Shown piece after piece: positions 3,611 to 28,072 of a stretch of 28,508 bases of DNA; the stretch's first letter is position 1; every line of letters begins with the position of its first letter. The DNA is from a virus. The stretch lies in IMG/VR virus record IMGVR_UViG_3300000101_000110, positions 1 through 28,508 of that record; one strand, written 5' to 3'. The notes below the pieces were generated by a model. That model was not told the origin of the DNA. It was given only the letters and a program-made list of their open reading frames with translations, and ran no database searches. The position numbers and the translations under genes were made by a program.

Positions 3611-3678
3611 TGGCTGGCTTTCCTGATACAGTTACGTGGCCTGAAGAGCCTTCAGACGACAATGGGGGGTCCAACTAA
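3610..3678 (+). CDS. 22-residue coupled microprotein
   Basis: The ATG overlaps the previous TAA (TAATG), and its own TAA overlaps the next ATG in the same way. The peptide is MAGFPDTVTWPEEPSDDNG followed by GSN: acidic, proline-rich and probably unstructured. It may be a true microprotein, or only a device that carries ribosomes from one gene to the next. Perfect overlap at both ends is the only evidence. Confidence 0.4.
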   Translation: MAGFPDTVTWPEEPSDDNGGSN

Positions 3679-4136
3679 TGAGCGGCTACATAGGCACACA
3701 GCCCGTACCACAAGCCACCCAAACGAGGGACAGCTTCACAGCTACAGCAGGTCAGACGTCCTTCGCCACAGCAGGCTACACACCACAGTTCCTCGACGTG
3801 TTCTTGAATGGCGTGCACTTGCAGAACGGCACAGACTATACAGCGGCTAACGGCTCTGATGTTGTGCTAACAGTAGGTGCGGCCCTAAACGATGTGCTTG
3901 AGGTCGTAGCTTATACCACGTTTGAGGTGGCTAACGTCTCAGGCGGCGGCATGTTCAAAGGCGATAATGGGACAGTCGGAACACGGGCGGGGGACATCTT
4001 CCGCATCAATGAGCAAACCCTCAACACAAACACAACCATTGACGCAGATGAAAACGCAAGTGCTTCTGGCCCACTGGCTGTTGCATCGGGCGTTACATTG
4101 ACCGTCACATCTGGGGGGAACTTGTCCATTGTCTGA
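3678..4136 (+). CDS. Tail fibre / receptor-binding accessory protein
   Basis: 152 residues. Residues 16-90 follow a pattern frequent in marine phage fibres: FTATAGQTSF, then Y-T-P-Q-F-L-D-V-F-L-N-G-V, then NGTDYTAANGSDVVL and DVLEVVAYTTF. The C-terminal 60 residues are a Thr/Asn/Ser-rich beta region that reads like the start of a triple beta-helix (INEQTLNTNTTIDADENASA). It is probably one part of a multi-gene fibre. The last codons overlap the next gene by eight bases. Confidence 0.7.
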   Translation: MSGYIGTQPVPQATQTRDSFTATAGQTSFATAGYTPQFLDVFLNGVHLQNGTDYTAANGSDVVLTVGAALNDVLEVVAYTTFEVANVSGGGMFKGDNGTVGTRAGDIFRINEQTLNTNTTIDADENASASGPLAVASGVTLTVTSGGNLSIV

Positions 4137-4497
4137 GATTAGAGCAGCAACAATAAGCGATGCGGCTGGCACTGGCCCCATTTCTTTAACAGGACAGAGT
4201 GCTGCGAAGGCTTGGGTTAACTTTAATGGCGCTGGTACTATTGCAATAAGGGATAGTTTTAATGTTGCCAGCTTGACGGATAATAGCACTGGAAATTACG
4301 ATGTGAACTTCAGCAACAATATGAGTAGCGTTGAGTATGCCCCACAGATATGTTCGAACGCTTCGGTAAACAACTATGGGTTTAATAGAACAGGTGGGGA
4401 AAATACTACTGCAAGAGTAAACGTCAATCATTATGAGTCTGCCGTACTTAGAGACACGAGCCGAATCTATACTTCCGCACACGGAGACCTAGCATGA
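4129..4497 (+). CDS. Receptor-type fibre module, paralogue 1 (TTG start)
   Basis: 122 residues. The core reads AKAWVNFNGAGTIAIRDSFNVASLTDNSTGNYDVNFSNNM, a module that recurs in fibre tips of marine phages. The only start that fits is TTG at 4129, giving MSEIRAATISDAAG, which parallels the MSTLxVxNI opening of the next two genes. It overlaps the previous gene by eight bases. It ends in HGDLA, and its ATGA stop starts the next paralogue. It is more A+T-rich than the genes upstream. Likely a trimeric tip domain that contacts the host surface. Confidence 0.7.
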   Translation: MSEIRAATISDAAGTGPISLTGQSAAKAWVNFNGAGTIAIRDSFNVASLTDNSTGNYDVNFSNNMSSVEYAPQICSNASVNNYGFNRTGGENTTARVNVNHYESAVLRDTSRIYTSAHGDLA

Positions 4498-4498
4498 G
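4480..4498 (+). repeat. 19-bp junction direct repeat, copy 1
   Basis: This 19-base sequence spans the end of paralogue 1 and the start of paralogue 2. It is identical to 4866-4884 at the next junction. A variant with one change in its core lies at the end of paralogue 3 (about 5219-5235). It encodes the shared HGDLA ending plus the overlapping ATGA. Confidence 0.85.
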
Positions 4499-4883
4499 CA
4501 CCCTCACAGTAACAAACATCAAGAAAACTGGCGAGACCGCTAGTCGTGATGTGTCAGGTGTCGCTGCGGCTTGGGTTAACTTTAATGGAACAGGGACTGT
4601 TGCTATCCGTGACAGCGTGAATGTCGCTAGCATTACTGACAACGCAACAGCAGACTTTGCTGTTAATTTCAGCAACAGTATGGCCAATACGTCGTACTCC
4701 TTCCAACTGTGTTGCGATTCCAACGCAACAAGCTTAGGTGCTTTTTATGGCGGGGTTCAATGGGACAACGACATAAAATCGACATCAGCAATTGAAGCTC
4801 ATTTTATGTATATTAACCCCTATAGCATAGGTAACTTCGACCCTACAGAAACTAATTTCTTAATCCACGGAGACCTAGCATGA
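4494..4883 (+). CDS. Receptor-type fibre module, paralogue 2
   Basis: 129 residues. It aligns with its upstream neighbour over AWVNFNGTGTVAIRDSVNVASITDNATADFAVNFSNSM, and the genes share a 20-base identical stretch at 4210-4229 and 4569-4588. The C-terminal half (SYSFQLCCDSNATSLGAF onward) is unrelated to either neighbour, as expected where host contact is made. It ends in HGDLA and overlaps the genes on both sides by four bases. It would be a fibre tip subunit expressed together with its paralogues. Confidence 0.7.
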   Translation: MSTLTVTNIKKTGETASRDVSGVAAAWVNFNGTGTVAIRDSVNVASITDNATADFAVNFSNSMANTSYSFQLCCDSNATSLGAFYGGVQWDNDIKSTSAIEAHFMYINPYSIGNFDPTETNFLIHGDLA

Positions 4884-4884
4884 G
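4866..4884 (+). repeat. 19-bp junction direct repeat, copy 2
   Basis: Identical to 4480-4498. The two copies flank paralogue 2, so recombination between them would delete or duplicate exactly one gene while keeping the reading frames and the ATGA coupling. Confidence 0.85.
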
Positions 4885-5236
4885 TACTTTAAACGTAGCA
4901 AACATCACCGATGGCACAGACACAGTCGAGACAGGCTATGTGGTCAATGGGTCTGCGAAGGCTTTTTGGCGCAGTGCAACGACTTATACTCTTGGTTCGT
5001 CTTTGAATGTGTCGTCAATGACGGACAATGGCACTGGTAGTTATAACGTTTCCTTTTCAAGTGCTTTTACAAGCAGTGATAATATTGTTGCAACTTTTGG
5101 CAATGTGTCGACTGTTCCAAGAGTGTATGGTGGAAGTGTTGTTAGCGCATCTGAAATGACGTGTAGAATGCATAACACAAGTGGGGCCACTATAGACACT
5201 AACGCCGCTGGAAGCGTCAACGGAAACCTAGCATGA
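4880..5236 (+). CDS. Receptor-type fibre module, paralogue 3
   Basis: 118 residues. It is the most diverged of the three tandem modules: it opens MSTLNVANITDGTDTVETGYVVNGSAKAFW, then LNVSSMTDNGTGSYNVSFSSAF. It keeps the opening, the S-x-T-D-N-x-T-x-x-Y-x-V-x-F core and the ending NGNLA, but replaces WVNFNGTGT with WRSATTYTL. The C-terminal half differs from the others. It overlaps both neighbours by four bases. Either it is an alternative receptor-binding tip or one chain of a mixed trimer. Confidence 0.65.
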   Translation: MSTLNVANITDGTDTVETGYVVNGSAKAFWRSATTYTLGSSLNVSSMTDNGTGSYNVSFSSAFTSSDNIVATFGNVSTVPRVYGGSVVSASEMTCRMHNTSGATIDTNAAGSVNGNLA

Positions 5237-5658
5237 CACACCTATGGGACCGCTTAGCTGAAGCTAAGGCACGCCTCAAACCTGTACAATCGCAGTATCG
5301 TGTGCTGTTCGAGAACCCTGCTGATCCAGAAGCCCCTGCGGCTGTACTCTGCCCTGATCCTAACTGGATGGCAGCAGCACTGGAGGGCGGCGTACTGCCC
5401 CCTATAGACACCTACTTGCGTGATCAGGGGGTAGCTGACGGGGAACCCAAGGAACACCCATACGCAGAGCCTATCGGTGCTATGACTGAAGAAGAGGCTA
5501 TTGAATACCTCATACAGAAAGACATCCCGCCACAGATCTGGCGTGACTACACAGGCAATCGGTGCGTAATGAAGATCGTGCCTGTAGAATTGATCCCATC
5601 GGATCGCAGCTTCCGCAATGCGTGGAAGATTAACCAAGAAATGGAGTTTGCGGCATGA
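5233..5658 (+). CDS. Tail-fibre-associated or assembly-chaperone-like protein
   Basis: 141 residues; the function is not firmly recognised. The N-terminal part is a soluble domain with many prolines (PNWMAAALEGGVLPPIDTYL). The C-terminal part has EEAIEYLIQKDIPPQIWR, then the segment IPSDRSFRNAWKI. The DRxFRxAW segment also occurs in the next gene and in small phage proteins found downstream of fibre genes, often labelled tail assembly chaperones. Position and motif suggest fibre assembly or attachment. Four-base overlap upstream and downstream. Confidence 0.6.
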   Translation: MTHLWDRLAEAKARLKPVQSQYRVLFENPADPEAPAAVLCPDPNWMAAALEGGVLPPIDTYLRDQGVADGEPKEHPYAEPIGAMTEEEAIEYLIQKDIPPQIWRDYTGNRCVMKIVPVELIPSDRSFRNAWKINQEMEFAA

Positions 5659-6002
5659 CCACTTACATCAATATCAACGGTGACGTGCGTGATGCGTCGT
5701 CTCTTACAGTACCAACAGACCGCACATTCCGTGGTGCATGGTCATTCAACGGCGATGCTGTTGAAGTAGATATGACAGCAGCGCTGGCTATCCAGAAAGA
5801 GAACCTACGTGCAGAACGTGCGCCTCGCTTAGCTGACCTAGACGTTGACTACATGAAGGCACTAGAGGCTGGCACAGGCGCGGCTGACATTGCGACAGAG
5901 AAAGAAACACTGCGCAATATCACAGACGATTCACGTCTGGCTGCGGCGACTACTCCTGATGCACTCAAGGCTCTGAACCTAGCAACTCTCTTGGGAGAAT
6001 AA
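5655..6002 (+). CDS. DRTFRxAW-motif phage protein (putative fibre assembly factor)
   Basis: 115 residues. The segment VPTDRTFRGAWSF (about residues 19-31) is followed by a helical part with KENLRAERAPRLADLDVDYMKALEAG, a layout widespread in small phage proteins beside fibre genes. It shares the DRxFRxAW element with the C-terminus of the gene before it, so the pair may be related or interact through it. An assembly chaperone is the usual guess for this family, and I cannot confirm it. It is the last gene before an 80-base intergenic stretch. Confidence 0.6.
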   Translation: MTTYININGDVRDASSLTVPTDRTFRGAWSFNGDAVEVDMTAALAIQKENLRAERAPRLADLDVDYMKALEAGTGAADIATEKETLRNITDDSRLAAATTPDALKALNLATLLGE

Positions 6003-16524: not shown

Positions 16525-18372
16525 ATGCAGATCGGTCTGAGCCTGTCCCTGACGGCGCAATTGCGTTTATCCATTAGCGCTTACGCAGTGTCGGGCCTTG
16601 ACCCTTCCTTGGTGTTTGACTTTAAGGGTAACTACTTCCGTAAGAGTGCAACTGCCTCTACCTTTGGTGCATCTATAACTCACGCAGCTACAACCAATGC
16701 AACTATGGTTGATAGTGATGGCTTGCTAAAGTGGCGTCCACATAACAACCTTGCAAAGTCAAACACCTTTAGTACGTGGACTAAAAACTCAACTGTTGCT
16801 GTTGATAACGCCGCAACAGGCCCGAACGGTGTAGCTAACACAGCGTCCACAGTTAACTTCTCTACTGGAGGCTCATCCCTTTACAACTTGTCCACAGTTA
16901 CTGTTAAAGCAGGAGACAAAGTAACTCTTGCCGCATGGGTTCGCAGTGATACCATAACTTCTATTACGTTCGCAATAAATGGTCGTACAAGTCCCGGTAA
17001 TAACACATTAGAGACCAATCTCGCTGTAACCTCCACTTGGGCGTTAGTTTCATTTGAAGCCACTGTTATAACTAATGACACTGGCCTGTACTTTATAATT
17101 GGGAAGGTCAATCCCTCCAGCCCTGCTTCTCAAATAGGTGACTTTGAGATTTACGGCGCACATATGTTCCGCAGTGACCTCGGTGGCATGGTAAACAACC
17201 CTGACACTGCTAGCAGCTACGTTCCAACGACCTCTGCTGCTGTCTATTCCCCTCGTCGTGGTCATCACATCTACAATGGCTCTGCTTGGGTTAACGAAGG
17301 CATCCTCCACGAGAGTGAAGCTCGGACTAATCTTATTGAAAACTCAAATGACTTAACTAATGTAGAATGGAAAAAGACCTCAGTTTCTAACACCGCAAAT
17401 GCTGGGGTGTCTCCTGACGGAACCTCTAACGCAAACAAAGTTGTTAACGATACTGCCAGTGGCGTTCACTACACTTATGTAAAAGAAGACCTACATCTCG
17501 TGAGTGGTGATTACACCTCCTCTTTTTATGTAGCTTCTGCGGGTTACGGCTTTGTTACAGTTTGTGCTGGAACTAACACTTCTGATTACTATGCTGTTGT
17601 TATTGATTTGTCTGATGGCACTAAAACAGCAACATACGAGGCTGGTACACAAACAGATAAGACATGTACTGTTGAGGATGTGGGTGGCTCTTATTACAGA
17701 GTTTCAATTAGTGGAGATGGCTCGAGATATTTCATTGTGGGTGGCGTTGACACAGGAACGTACACGCCCGCTGACTATGGCTTTAAGTCATTCTCTGGTG
17801 ACGGTACTTCGGGCATCCTAGCTTACGGCGCACAAATCGAAGCTGGCTCAACCCCATCAAGCTACATCCCAACAGGCTCTTCTACAGTAACTCGTGCTGC
17901 TGAGACACTAACAGTCCCTGCGGCTAACCTGCCTTATGACAGCACTAACATGTCTATCCAGATGGATGGCAAGATGACGTATGCTGATACTGGCGGTGAT
18001 AACGGTAAATTAATCAGGTGGGAAAAGGACGTCAACAACAAACTTTGGGCGTCACTAGATTCTTCTGGTGCATCTACGGGTTCTCCTTATTGGACACAGA
18101 GAAGTTTGGGCGTATCAAGTTTTACATCAAGTCTGCCACAGCTTTCCCCCGACACCAATGTTCCGTTTAACCTTTCTTCCCGCCACGGTTCTACGTTCCT
18201 TAATGGTGCAGTAGGTGGAACAGCGGGTATAGCTGACACAACCCCTACGTCTTTCCCTGACTTGTCTGCTTCCAGCTTATCCCTTGGACATAACTTCATG
18301 GGTACAATCGGACAGTTCCGTATGTGGGATGAAGACCTTACTGACGCTGGTATTGTGGAGGCATCAACATGA
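16525..18372 (+). CDS. Large fibre with two carbohydrate-binding-type domains and a LamG-like domain
   Basis: 615 residues. The first 70 are an attachment region. Two jelly-roll units follow: residues about 73-236 (NLAKSNTFSTWTKNS to EIYGAHMF ... YVPT) and about 266-450 (TNLIENSNDLTNVEWKKTS to YGAQIEAGSTPSSYIPT). Both share the W-x-K-x-S opening and the GA(H/Q)-x-x-x-S-Y-(V/I)-P-T ending. Residues about 465-610 resemble a concanavalin/LamG domain ending in IGQFRMWDEDLTDAGI. Such proteins bind surface glycans. It is much more A+T-rich than portal or capsid. Position between portal and scaffold suggests a head-attached fibre, though a tail location is possible. Confidence 0.7.
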   Translation: MQIGLSLSLTAQLRLSISAYAVSGLDPSLVFDFKGNYFRKSATASTFGASITHAATTNATMVDSDGLLKWRPHNNLAKSNTFSTWTKNSTVAVDNAATGPNGVANTASTVNFSTGGSSLYNLSTVTVKAGDKVTLAAWVRSDTITSITFAINGRTSPGNNTLETNLAVTSTWALVSFEATVITNDTGLYFIIGKVNPSSPASQIGDFEIYGAHMFRSDLGGMVNNPDTASSYVPTTSAAVYSPRRGHHIYNGSAWVNEGILHESEARTNLIENSNDLTNVEWKKTSVSNTANAGVSPDGTSNANKVVNDTASGVHYTYVKEDLHLVSGDYTSSFYVASAGYGFVTVCAGTNTSDYYAVVIDLSDGTKTATYEAGTQTDKTCTVEDVGGSYYRVSISGDGSRYFIVGGVDTGTYTPADYGFKSFSGDGTSGILAYGAQIEAGSTPSSYIPTGSSTVTRAAETLTVPAANLPYDSTNMSIQMDGKMTYADTGGDNGKLIRWEKDVNNKLWASLDSSGASTGSPYWTQRSLGVSSFTSSLPQLSPDTNVPFNLSSRHGSTFLNGAVGGTAGIADTTPTSFPDLSASSLSLGHNFMGTIGQFRMWDEDLTDAGIVEAST

Positions 18373-22919: not shown

Positions 22920-23058
22920 CGGTGACACTTACTGTGATTTGTCGAGCAGCATTATGTTTGGCGAGCAGTCAGTGATTGATGACCTTGCGGCGTCTGACCC
23001 GCAACTGCTACGCCAGATCGTGACGCACAACGAGACCCGTCAGGCTATCTGCAAATGA
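22849..23058 (+). CDS. Outer-membrane spanin lipoprotein (Rz1-like)
   Basis: 69 residues. The N-terminus is a lipoprotein signal with the lipobox LLAGC, cysteine at residue 19, so the mature form is about 51 residues. A very good site (AAGGAGG) lies seven bases upstream. Its first 71 bases overlap the inner spanin gene in another frame. The mature part has two more cysteines and a helix (SVIDDLAASDPQLLRQIVTHNE). It is low in proline compared with lambda Rz1. It overlaps the next gene by four bases. Confidence 0.75.
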   Translation: MNYKMFLTIALLPALLAGCGTTISGDTYCDLSSSIMFGEQSVIDDLAASDPQLLRQIVTHNETRQAICK

Positions 23059-24155
23059 CACCTAAGCAGCGCGAGGCTTGGAACCTGCACATCGCGGGTG
23101 TGCGGGGCAGAGAGATTTCTAAGCGGCTGGGCATTAACGAGTCCAGCGTAAGCACTCGACTCAAGAACGCGCGCAAGCACGCTGAAGCGGATGAAGCTAT
23201 CCAAGGCGCTATGCGTGCTGTTGGCATGTCGGACGCTGGCCCGCTGCACTCAGGATGGATCAAGAGCGAGGGCGCTTCCCTTTATTTTCAGATGCCAAAA
23301 GATGCTGGAGGTAATGTCAGCGAGATAGTTCGCGAGGCGTTTGAGGGCATCCCCGCCTGCCCGGCGATCCCAAGCGCTCGCGAGTTCACTGGTGGGCTAC
23401 TCACTGTGTACCCAATATTTGATGCTCACATTGGCATGCGTGCCAGCTCCGAGGAGAGCGGTGAGGACATGGACAACGATATCGCAGAGCGCCGTATCAC
23501 AGGCGGTGTGGGGCAGTGCATTGCATCCTCACCAGCTTCTGAGAAGGCTGTCATCCTGATCGGCGGTGATGCGTTGCACGCTAACGATCAGACAGCGCAG
23601 ACGCCGCAATCCAAGCACGTTCTTGATGTAGCCTCTAGCTTCAGCGAGGCGCTTGACGCTGCCATTCGGACATTCGCGGCCTGTATTGAGATGGCCGCAG
23701 TCAAGCACAGCAGCGTGATCGTGAGCGTCATCCAAGGCAACCATGATCGGGATGCTTTCTTGGCTATTATGTACGCTCTGCGCGAGCGCTACAGAGACAA
23801 CCCGCGCATTGAGGTGCAGCGCAAGGGTGGCGAGTTCTTTGTCATGGAGTGGGGCAAGGTGATGATCGCCTCGCATCACGGAGACAAGGCTAAGGCCGAG
23901 CGGCTCGTGATGCACATGGCTGATGAGTGGGCTGAGATGTGGGGCCGTACTAGACACCGCTTCTACTTCACAGGTCACATGCATCACACAAAGATGCAGG
24001 ACGTTGGCGGCGTGCAAGTGGAGCAGCTTCGCGCCGTTGCGCCGAGGGACGCGTATGCAGCGTCCCACAGCTATTCTTCCCGCTCCGAGATGCAAGCCAT
24101 CACCTACCACAAGGCTAGTGGAGAGGTGAGCCGTGTCAAGGTGGCGCTAGCCTGA
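23055..24155 (+). CDS. Metallophosphoesterase with N-terminal helix-turn-helix domain
   Basis: 366 residues. Residues 1-48 form a LuxR/sigma70-region-4-like helix-turn-helix (TPKQREAWNLHIAGVRGREISKRLG, INESSVSTRLKNARKH). The rest is a calcineurin-type phosphoesterase with all metal motifs in order: DAH (123-125), GGD (170-172), GNHD (228-231), HHG (274-276), GHMHH (307-311). Substrates could be DNA ends, nucleotides or cyclic signals; none can be chosen. It is the last + strand gene, coupled to the spanin by ATGA, and its end overlaps the convergent gene by nine bases. Confidence 0.8.
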   Translation: MTPKQREAWNLHIAGVRGREISKRLGINESSVSTRLKNARKHAEADEAIQGAMRAVGMSDAGPLHSGWIKSEGASLYFQMPKDAGGNVSEIVREAFEGIPACPAIPSAREFTGGLLTVYPIFDAHIGMRASSEESGEDMDNDIAERRITGGVGQCIASSPASEKAVILIGGDALHANDQTAQTPQSKHVLDVASSFSEALDAAIRTFAACIEMAAVKHSSVIVSVIQGNHDRDAFLAIMYALRERYRDNPRIEVQRKGGEFFVMEWGKVMIASHHGDKAKAERLVMHMADEWAEMWGRTRHRFYFTGHMHHTKMQDVGGVQVEQLRAVAPRDAYAASHSYSSRSEMQAITYHKASGEVSRVKVALA

Positions 24156-26062: not shown

Positions 26063-27239
26063 GCAACCTCCTGTAATTTTTCAGCGTGAAGTCGAGCTTC
26101 TTGCTGACTGCCGTATACACATGCTCGCTTACGCCACCGTCGGTCACGATGTGATTGACCACAGCGTCTGTGCGCTTGTTGAGGTTCACGCCTCGGTCAC
26201 GCCGCTGCACGAATTTAGCGCCGCTGTAGTCGCTGTTCACGATCACGAAATGCGCGAAGTCGGCGAGGCTCACGCCCTCGGCATGGGCAACGCTGGAAAA
26301 TATAGACGCCTTCGGGAAGTGCTTATCCAGCTTCATGCGGGTGCTGCGGAAGTGCGCCATCAGCGCCAGCCCTTCGCTGTCGCCCCACGTCTTCTTAATG
26401 TAGTCGATCACCTCCGTGTTCGGAAGGTCGATCAACTGCTCGTCCACCATCACAGCGCCAGCCTCAATCTGGTGGATGGCTACCCGCTCGGCCATGTCAC
26501 TCTCCGCAGCGAACACAACACCGGGGGCGATTGACGCCACCTTGTCCCGCTGGATCGTGGCGATCAGCCCTTTCGTGGCCGCTCTAAGTTCAACTTTGTG
26601 GACCTTATCCACTGCCTTGTGCGTGATGCCCGCTTGGTCTTGCGTCAGGGTAATTATGTAAGGCTCTAGGCGATCCAGCAGTTCGGGACGGGCCTTCTTA
26701 TACTGCTCAACCCAGCGCCCGTTTATGCGTATCTGCGAGGACACGCCCCACGCTCGGAAGAACTCGTAGAAGTTCTTGTAGCGTAACGGCGACCTCTTAG
26801 AGAGTGCGAACTGGTAGTATAGCTGCAAGAGGCTTTCAGTTGACGGCGTGCCTGTCATCAATAGCACAGGCTTATCCCAAGATATTCGGCGGAGGTGCTT
26901 CCAGCGCTTAGTGGGCTTGCCGGGGCGGCTGATCGCGTGGCTCTCGTCAACCACGACAAAGTCGAAGTCGTCCGCGTGGAGTTTGGCGCACTGCTCGTAA
27001 TTCGTGACTGTCCCGTCGCCTAGCGAGAACCTCACCGCGTCCACTTCCGACCACCACCCCTTGATCGCCGCCTTCTTGGTGACGATCAAGGGGCGCTTCG
27101 CGCCGAGTAGGTCAAGCGTGCGTAAGGCGGTGCGGGTCTTACCCGTCCGCATCTCACCTTGGAGGAGGCATATGCCCTTGTCCTTTACGACTGCCGCTAC
27201 CTTGTCCGACGTCTCTATCTGGTGTGGCAGGTAGGTCAT
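26052..27239 (-). CDS. SNF2/DEAD-like superfamily 2 helicase
   Basis: 395 residues from the ATG at 27239, which overlaps the exonuclease stop by four bases. An in-frame ATG at 27272 would overlap by 37 bases and is rejected. Walker A is GEMRTGKT (28-35), Walker B DESH (98-101), motif III TGTP (129-132), and a late QRRDRGVNLNKRTD segment resembles motif VI. The short SNF2-type layout is common in phage replication blocks. It would remodel or unwind DNA beside the polymerase, exonuclease and VRR-NUC nuclease. Confidence 0.85.
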   Translation of the reverse strand: MTYLPHQIETSDKVAAVVKDKGICLLQGEMRTGKTRTALRTLDLLGAKRPLIVTKKAAIKGWWSEVDAVRFSLGDGTVTNYEQCAKLHADDFDFVVVDESHAISRPGKPTKRWKHLRRISWDKPVLLMTGTPSTESLLQLYYQFALSKRSPLRYKNFYEFFRAWGVSSQIRINGRWVEQYKKARPELLDRLEPYIITLTQDQAGITHKAVDKVHKVELRAATKGLIATIQRDKVASIAPGVVFAAESDMAERVAIHQIEAGAVMVDEQLIDLPNTEVIDYIKKTWGDSEGLALMAHFRSTRMKLDKHFPKASIFSSVAHAEGVSLADFAHFVIVNSDYSGAKFVQRRDRGVNLNKRTDAVVNHIVTDGGVSEHVYTAVSKKLDFTLKNYRRLRAV

Positions 27240-28072
27240 AGGAACGGGTTCTTCGGTACTGAGATCGTCCATGTGCCTTCGCTTTGCTTGCGGTACTCCT
27301 CAAGGTCAATGACTGACTTGGTCGCCGCCTTCTTGTAGTCATACGTGACGCGCGGCTTGCCCTTGGTCAGCTTGAAGTCGCCAGCCGTCAGGCTCTTGTC
27401 GCTGCTGTGTTCAATCAGACCCTTCTTGATCTCGTCCATTTCATCTTTCGCCCGCTCGGTCTCGGCCTTGAGCTTAGCGTAACGCTGGAACAGCTCCATG
27501 ACAGCCCCGTTGTTCGACATGTCGGCCACCTCTGGCACCTCCATCTCGTCGAACCGCGTCCAAGCCTCCGACACCCGCTGCATGAACGTGTAGTCAAGCT
27601 CGATCAGGCGGGACACCGCGATATCTTCTTCTTTGGGACTGTAGGCGAAGATGTAGCCGTACTTAGCAGGGCTGCAATACAACTGCTGCTGAACCTGCGC
27701 GTAATAATATTCGGGCGTGATACCGTCCCGCAGATCCCGGTATGTGCGATCCGACACCTTCAGCTCGACCAATATGTCACCAGCGATTCCGTCGAGGCTC
27801 GCCATGTAGTCACCGTTCGCCCAGCACTCGTCCTTGAAATCACGCGCGAAGTAGTCACTAGCATATTGGCGCACCAAATCTTCGAGGTCGTGACCTTGCT
27901 TCATCGCGGCGGAATAATACTGTTGCTTGACGCCCGCCTTGATCAGCTTGAAATCAGCGATAGACGTGAACGGGCTTATGCCCAGCACAATAGCCGCCTC
28001 GCTGGCGGTGCGGTACTTCTTGCGCGCGTCCAGCCACTCTTGGCTGTTCTGTTCGAGGTGTAGTTGTTCCAT
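27236..28072 (-). CDS. YqaJ/lambda-type exonuclease
   Basis: 278 residues. The N-terminus has QNSQEWLDARKKYRTASEAA, then GHDLEDLVRQYA, SLDG (Asp94), ELK (Glu103, Lys105) and QVQQQLY (126-132), the motifs of the phage recombination exonuclease family, a PD-(D/E)xK fold. The C-terminal 80 residues hold a coiled coil and a basic strand segment. The family degrades one DNA strand from double-strand ends for recombination or packaging. No clear annealing partner is visible here. Its start overlaps the polymerase stop by one base (TGATG). Confidence 0.85.
   Translation of the reverse strand: MEQLHLEQNSQEWLDARKKYRTASEAAIVLGISPFTSIADFKLIKAGVKQQYYSAAMKQGHDLEDLVRQYASDYFARDFKDECWANGDYMASLDGIAGDILVELKVSDRTYRDLRDGITPEYYYAQVQQQLYCSPAKYGYIFAYSPKEEDIAVSRLIELDYTFMQRVSEAWTRFDEMEVPEVADMSNNGAVMELFQRYAKLKAETERAKDEMDEIKKGLIEHSSDKSLTAGDFKLTKGKPRVTYDYKKAATKSVIDLEEYRKQSEGTWTISVPKNPFL

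Follow-up and report, generated by a model that had tools for sequence, protein, structure and literature searches.

The closest described relatives of the locus analyzed here are phage systems in which adhesins or their binding parts are exchanged. Adhesin swapping has been described for gp38 of the T-even phages, where hypervariable binding segments lie between conserved motifs, and the specificity of the adhesin is swapped when these motifs recombine (Tetart 1998; cited in PMC6027323, PMC11414711). In coliphage tailspikes, conserved DNA flanks the receptor-binding domains across genera and has been proposed to form recombination hotspots (PMC10408124). The branched tailspikes TSP1-4 of the Ackermannviridae have conserved N-terminal domains that fix the place of each protein and variable C-termini that are exchanged by recombination (PMC11414711), and the second receptor-binding proteins of Klebsiella phages attach through a conserved short peptide (PMC6872550). 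The reports on marine metaviromic islands (PMC3909814) and on module shuffling in cryoconite phages (PMC7468147) describe host-recognition genes as variable. Herein we analyze a viral record of 28,508 bases, the whole of which is referred to as the window, in which three small tail fiber genes lie in tandem. We consider it likely that this locus is a three-slot array in which slot-specific heads are kept while core-tip cassettes are replaced, probably by homologous recombination.

Layout of the locus

The nearest relative of the portal of the window is that of Octadecabacter Antarctic DB virus 2 (48%), no DNA-level match to the window was found among deposited phage records, and a scan of genome contigs for prophages and hosts found no relative of gene 2 of the array. 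The array and the neighboring features are as follows.

3678..4136, + strand: upstream tail fiber gene, 152 aa, ends GGNLSIV; precedes slot 1 in related arrays
4129..4497, + strand: slot-1 tip gene, 122 aa, TTG start; phrog_11355, E 1.8e-22
4129..4209, + strand: slot-1 head (type A), residues 1-27, from head clustering
4202..4229, + strand: 5' anchor CTGCGAAGGCTTGGGTTAACTTTAATGG, codons of the AAKAWVNFNG region, from repeat search
4210..4497, + strand: slot-1 exchangeable cassette (core, tip, GDLA), from identity to the L096 slot-3 cassette
4483..4497, + strand: 3' anchor GGAGACCTAGCATGA (15-mer), comprising Shine-Dalgarno, last codons GDLA, and stop/start overlap
4494..4883, + strand: slot-2 tip gene, 129 aa; phrog_11355, E 1.1e-16; AlphaFold2 model m27d203ca9d16
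4569..4883, + strand: slot-2 exchangeable cassette, boundary from homology with swapped cassettes
4869..4883, + strand: 3' anchor, second copy
4880..5236, + strand: slot-3 tip gene, 118 aa; phrog_11355, E 4.7e-5
4961..5236, + strand: slot-3 exchangeable cassette, boundary from homology with swapped cassettes
5222..5236, + strand: 3' anchor, third copy (GGAAACCTAGCATGA)
5233..5658, + strand: downstream conserved gene (HLWDRLAEAK family), 141 aa, ATGA-coupled
5655..6002, + strand: probable tail fiber assembly gene, 115 aa; phrog_20196, E 6e-16, and phrog_4912, weak
27236..28072, - strand: YqaJ-type recombination exonuclease; PF09588, E 6.6e-14

The three genes are coupled as an earlier sequence-only reading had described them, with ATGA overlaps at 4494, 4880, and 5233, and the slot-1 gene (4129-4497) overlaps the upstream gene by 8 nt (4129-4136). 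Type A slot-1 genes in general mostly have a TTG start and the 8-nt upstream overlap, with TTGTCTGA in 49 of 60 arrays. The upstream gene matches tail fiber families phrog_18345 (E 1.7e-6) and phrog_5342 (E 1.4e-5) and is likely to be the attachment base for the array. The HLWDRLAEAK-family gene comes after the array in cultured phages as well as in many contigs. Beyond this 141-residue gene and the probable fiber assembly gene lies a collar-type tail gene; the slot corresponding to the assembly gene in locus L018 matches Pfam Phage_tail_APC (E 6e-15). The YqaJ-type exonuclease is a candidate for a general recombination function. Elsewhere in the window, a protein encoded at 23055-24155 has N-terminal sigma-70 region 4 and C-terminal calcineurin-like phosphoesterase matches, and a 615-residue protein encoded 3' of the portal (16525-18372) has no Pfam match.

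Family, core, and predicted fold

By profile match all three genes belong to tail fiber family phrog_11355, which supports a tail fiber identity, the match being nearly full length for genes 1 and 2 and restricted to residues 15-70 for gene 3. Each gene comprises a head of ~25-35 residues followed by a core and a tip ending in GDLA. Of the core described as common to all three, gene 3 is without most of AWVNFNGTGT...RDS, reads AKAFWRSATTYTL..., and has in common with the other two mainly AKA and SxNVSSMTDN. The C-terminal halves, described as unrelated, are so in sequence, yet the phrog_11355 profile covers genes 1 and 2 almost from end to end. Locus L473 carries a relative of gene 3 (70% at the amino acid level over residues 15-118). 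Sequence searches of Pfam and the PDB gave no useful match for the array genes.

The AlphaFold2 model of gene 2 (103 sequences, mean pLDDT 84.8) is all beta, with the head as its least certain part. In VIA-align comparisons the best structural matches of the model are C-terminal domains of phage tailspikes and fibers, followed by trimeric BclA and TNF-like folds. The phiAB6 tailspike gave a Z of 8.0 and Pam1 7.5, and C-terminal domains such as those of LKA1 (6.0), AP22 (5.8), and R2 pyocin (5.3) fell in the range 5.2-6.0. Foldseek found no PDB match for the model at E ≤ 0.001; among predicted viral structures there were 66 matches at E ≤ 0.001, several of which are long cyanophage tail fibers. 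Because a structural Z of 8.0 or less may reflect a common arrangement alone, we take the predicted trimeric tip fold as a lead only.

Copy number and slot-specific heads

An HMM built from the three genes retrieved 769 ORFs in fetched contigs, which after removal of duplicates gave 245 arrays, three modules being the commonest number. Among arrays with both flanks in view, the number of modules is three in 88, four in 7, two in 4, and one in 38, such that exactly three modules are present in 88 of the 99 complete multi-gene arrays; many of the one-module arrays either form a second locus within one phage or have an unrelated or HNH gene in the other slots. Arrays fetched later have three modules in 35 of 46 multi-module cases, including those from freshwater-type lineages (AIFR, SIFR).

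Heads are assigned to fixed slots, each array gene carrying a short conserved N-terminal peptide on a variable body. Heads were clustered without reference to position. Across the 133 arrays of three genes found in related viral contigs, the head cluster predicted the slot with a purity of 0.979, whereas 300 shuffles of the slots within arrays gave 0.40 on average and 0.47 at most. In these arrays type A occupies slot 1 in 109 of 109 cases, type B slot 2 in 64 of 64, and type C slot 3 in 66 of 67, and in the 57 arrays fetched by protein query only the purity is 0.994 (A, 55/55; B, 54/54; C, 55/56). An unrelated gene occupies one slot in phage HMO-2011 and in some contigs. Four loci (L336, L337, L343, and L350) have four modules; the third member is an insertion whose head is of an additional type, MSSTLTVTNLTATNL or a variant of it. 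Two close relatives of the window (L018:146-1904 and L020:4204-5787) have three unrelated coupled genes in place of the array, two of them ending in EIAQ, and the main difference between these two loci is that the third gene is replaced.

Replacement of tips and transfer between slots

Tips are replaced wholesale, with defined cassette boundaries. Pairs of arrays in which both flanks are >85% identical in nucleotide sequence (25 pairs, not all independent) provided 75 same-slot tip comparisons, in which the tips are unrelated (0.41-0.58) in 73 and 100% identical in two, with no intermediate identities seen. Of the 69 swapped comparisons, 50 have the 5' boundary ≤12 nt from the W codon (median -1), and 50 have the 3' boundary where the 15-mer starts. 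Conserved DNA lies on either side of a wholesale-replaced segment among close relatives. For example, loci L082 and L083 have flanks that are 94% and heads that are 97-100% identical; their slot-2 tips are identical and their slot-1 and slot-3 tips unrelated, identity ending after AAGGCTTGGG and returning at the GGAGAC[C/T]TAGCATGA junction. The variation among relatives that a recombination cassette was expected to show at these junctions is therefore found, and exactly there. Between two cultured cyanophages, Nsp-JY18 of Nostoc and Mel-JY33 of Microcystis, all three tip genes are only 56-59% identical, while the upstream fiber and two downstream genes are 96.1%, 98.3%, and 98.8% identical and the gene directly after the array 85%. 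These phages have hosts of different genera and differ in all three tips, which is circumstantial as to host specificity.

The tips, cut after the core, are so diverse that 560 modules yield 508 clusters at 70% identity, and they cross slots. More than one head label is present in 19 of 41 shared-tip clusters, the labels being approximate, and 11 of the 32 tip-sharing pairs in three-gene arrays are in different slots when heads are assigned without supervision. In the closest cross-head pairs, nucleotide identity is ~0.5-0.7 in the heads, 0.89-0.99 in the core, and 0.91-0.98 in the tip, and the downstream DNA is unrelated. The window itself provides a case. Its slot-1 cassette is 96-97% identical in nucleotide sequence to the slot-3 cassette of L096, which by its heads (0.93-0.94) is the closest array relative of the window and has unrelated tips in the same slots. 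The match spans CTGCGAAGGCTTGG to the stop codon and breaks at the AKAW codons and at the stop; outside it, identity is 56% in the heads and 46% in the downstream DNA.

The anchors and the junction

Both repeats on which the sequence-only reading was built are present, a 20-base identity between genes 1 and 2 (GCTTGGGTTAACTTTAATGG, 4210-4229 and 4569-4588) and a 19-base exact repeat flanking the middle gene (CACGGAGACCTAGCATGAG, 4480-4498 and 4866-4884). The latter has a third copy with 3 mismatches at 5219-5237, the chance expectation for a 19-mer with ≤3 mismatches in the window being 0.01 matches. The 5' anchor recurs in part, with its last 20 bases at 4569-4588 and its first 12 bases at 4953-4964; its codon bias is 0.3-0.8 bits in contigs retrieved without use of a DNA pattern.

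The 19-base junction is a Shine-Dalgarno and stop/start sequence with near-fixed codons. In the first copy of the 3' anchor (4483..4497) GGAGA lies 6 nt before the ATG, and translation explains part of the junction pattern since in 500 of 512 cases GGAGA is found 6 or 9 nt 5' of the following ATG. When only contigs retrieved without a DNA pattern are counted, the GDLA codons are GGA in 223 of 231, GAC in 209 of 216, CTA or TTA in 213 of 226, and GCA in 219 of 227, a bias of 1.1-2.0 bits compared with 0-0.2 at most core columns and 0.5 at one serine column. A set of 120 contigs had been fetched via the 15-mer itself, and when codon bias and slot fidelity were recomputed without these, both were stronger. 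GCA is forced where the gene ends in ATGA, but the leucine codons, GAC, and GCA before TAA are not, and the unforced bias would fit common descent via repeated transfer.

The GDLA junction is confined to one lineage. Slot genes ending in (E/R)I(A)x have their own version of it, for example GGAGATCGCACAATGA, and the three-gene arrays of the Nostoc phage and of freshwater lineages end differently. Loci L110, L112, and some among L426-L478 have the endings AIFR and SIFR and no GDLA junction. The existence of such arrays suggests that the three-slot format is older than the GDLA junction.

Alternative explanations

In the model proposed from the sequence, whole genes are deleted, added, or swapped when the 19-base copies of a single genome recombine with each other. 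The repeats are indeed exact, and there are the few four-module arrays, some with the added head MSSTLTVTNLTATNL or a variant in slot 3, but the number of modules is nearly constant at three (88 of 99, against 7 with four and 4 with two), no array among those compared has slots 1 and 3 without slot 2, none has the same tip twice, and a head is hardly ever found outside its own slot. On these counts, and given the fidelity of heads to slots, we reject whole-gene deletion or duplication between the repeats as the usual outcome, and this explanation is largely refuted, with very little probability left to it; what stands of the original proposal is the cassette itself, as seen in the wholesale and cross-slot replacement of tips. 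It is also very unlikely that the junction is kept for translation only while tips diverge fast in place with no exchange. The spacing of GGAGA from the next ATG accounts for the GGA and GA positions, and translation is therefore part of the explanation, but it is insufficient alone because the bias in the leucine and alanine codons exceeds what a Shine-Dalgarno sequence needs. In addition, tip identity is bimodal (0.41-0.58 or 1.00), and the closest tips are 91-98% identical in nucleotide sequence across differing heads and slots.

A dedicated mobilizer that drives cassette exchange, such as an HNH homing endonuclease cutting at the junction, would find some encouragement in loci L153, L300, and L360, where a NUMOD4/HNH-like gene starts exactly at GGAGAC[C/T]TAGCATGA inside the array; the L300 copy matches HNH_3 (E 1.5e-10). 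This L300 gene took approximately the first 14 codons of a slot-3 head. Endonuclease-assisted exchange is thus possible, although rare in the sample. As the general driver of exchange it is improbable, given that HNH genes occur in these three arrays only and not in the window, and they are perhaps mere parasites of a conserved site. The contigs are mostly metagenomic and short, and conserved heads could mislead an assembler, but it is extremely unlikely that the mosaics are assembly artifacts. Tips shared across slots differ by 2-5% or more between contigs rather than being exact copies, the shared anchors are just ~12-25 nt long, the isolate pair Nsp-JY18 and Mel-JY33 has the same pattern, and the isolate HMO-2011 has the same architecture and the 15-mer.

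Proposed mechanism

We now put forward a mechanism for the three-slot array with retained heads and replaceable cassettes. There would be three fixed attachment sites, the short N-terminal head determining which of them a protein occupies, and the beta-rich core and tip would face the host. The exchanged unit is the core, tip, and junction beneath a retained, position-specific head. Between related phages, cassettes would be swapped via ordinary homologous recombination, with the shared head and its AKAW codons as the left homology and the GGAGACCTAGCATGA junction and next head as the right. Relatives that exchange a cassette within one slot share 75-81 nt of head at the left, and this, with the junction and next head, is in principle sufficient for ordinary homologous recombination. 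Since the junction combines the cassette end, the Shine-Dalgarno sequence, and the stop/start, a swap would keep the frame, the translational coupling, and the gene number; in-frame exchange that retains the ATGA coupling was part of the sequence-only reading, and the observed swaps do end at the junction. More rarely, a cassette enters another slot, where the short anchors alone would serve as homology. We infer that homologous recombination is the agent, that the proteins are located in the virion, that the heads are docking peptides, and that the tips bind receptors, the last from their family, position, predicted fold, and hypervariability. Tip swapping is probably the way in which these aquatic phages change their attachment target.

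The three paralogues might form one heterotrimeric tip (1:1:1), with each head assigning a subunit. The near-constant number of three, the coupling, the fold resembling trimeric tips, and the three slot-specific heads are compatible with such an assembly. It is weakened, however, by the arrays with an unrelated gene in one slot, and we regard it as unlikely. If it were true, specificity would be a three-part combination taken from the common tip pool, and any one part could be changed by one recombination event.

If the three-slot mechanism is correct, an adhesin format with three positions would be standard across phage groups, its interchangeable tips would come from a very large common pool, and the boundary of each tip would be readable in the DNA. 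The host-range part could then be marked in thousands of uncultured phage contigs, and the matching of hosts to tips would become testable.

Comparison with known systems

Adhesin swapping is an already known strategy of which the array is a variant. The likeness to gp38 of the T-even phages lies in conserved motifs around hypervariable segments, but gp38 is one adhesin with glycine-rich motifs, whereas the array consists of three coupled genes whose heads are slot-specific and whose tips cross slots; no gp38 family was among the Pfam matches of 103 members, and at the level of Pfam the two show no sequence relationship. Conserved flanking DNA is common to the array and to the coliphage tailspikes, in which motifs of 20-95 bp surround large domains (PMC10408124), but here the 3' motif doubles as the Shine-Dalgarno and stop/start sequence of the next adhesin gene. 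Like the Ackermannviridae with TSP1-4, these phages have several receptor-binding proteins with place-fixing N-termini and exchangeable C-termini. In the Ackermannviridae, however, these are large spikes with T4gp10-like XD domains, while the proteins described here are of ~120 residues with heads of ~25-35 residues, in which no match to an XD domain was found. The Klebsiella phage proteins similarly bear a variable binding protein on a short conserved N-terminal peptide, whereas the array has three such peptides for its three paralogous slots, all of which draw on one tip pool. Host-recognition genes also differ among near-identical phages in the metaviromic islands and cryoconite phages, where the available portions of the reports give the variability per gene or region, without slot-specific heads or cassette boundaries. 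The wholesale replacement of tips is unlike the adenine mutagenesis of a diversity-generating retroelement. Puniceispirillum phage HMO-2011 (gp32-gp42, NC_021864) has the same families and 15-mer junctions, with annotation as tail fiber, but its slot 2 holds an unrelated gene ending in EIAG and a chaperone-like gene lies between slots 2 and 3. A partial search of the literature found no description of the three-slot format, and we propose that what is new in the array, relative to all of these systems, is the combination of three slots with specific heads, a common tip pool, and a junction that is at the same time the ribosome-binding and stop/start site.
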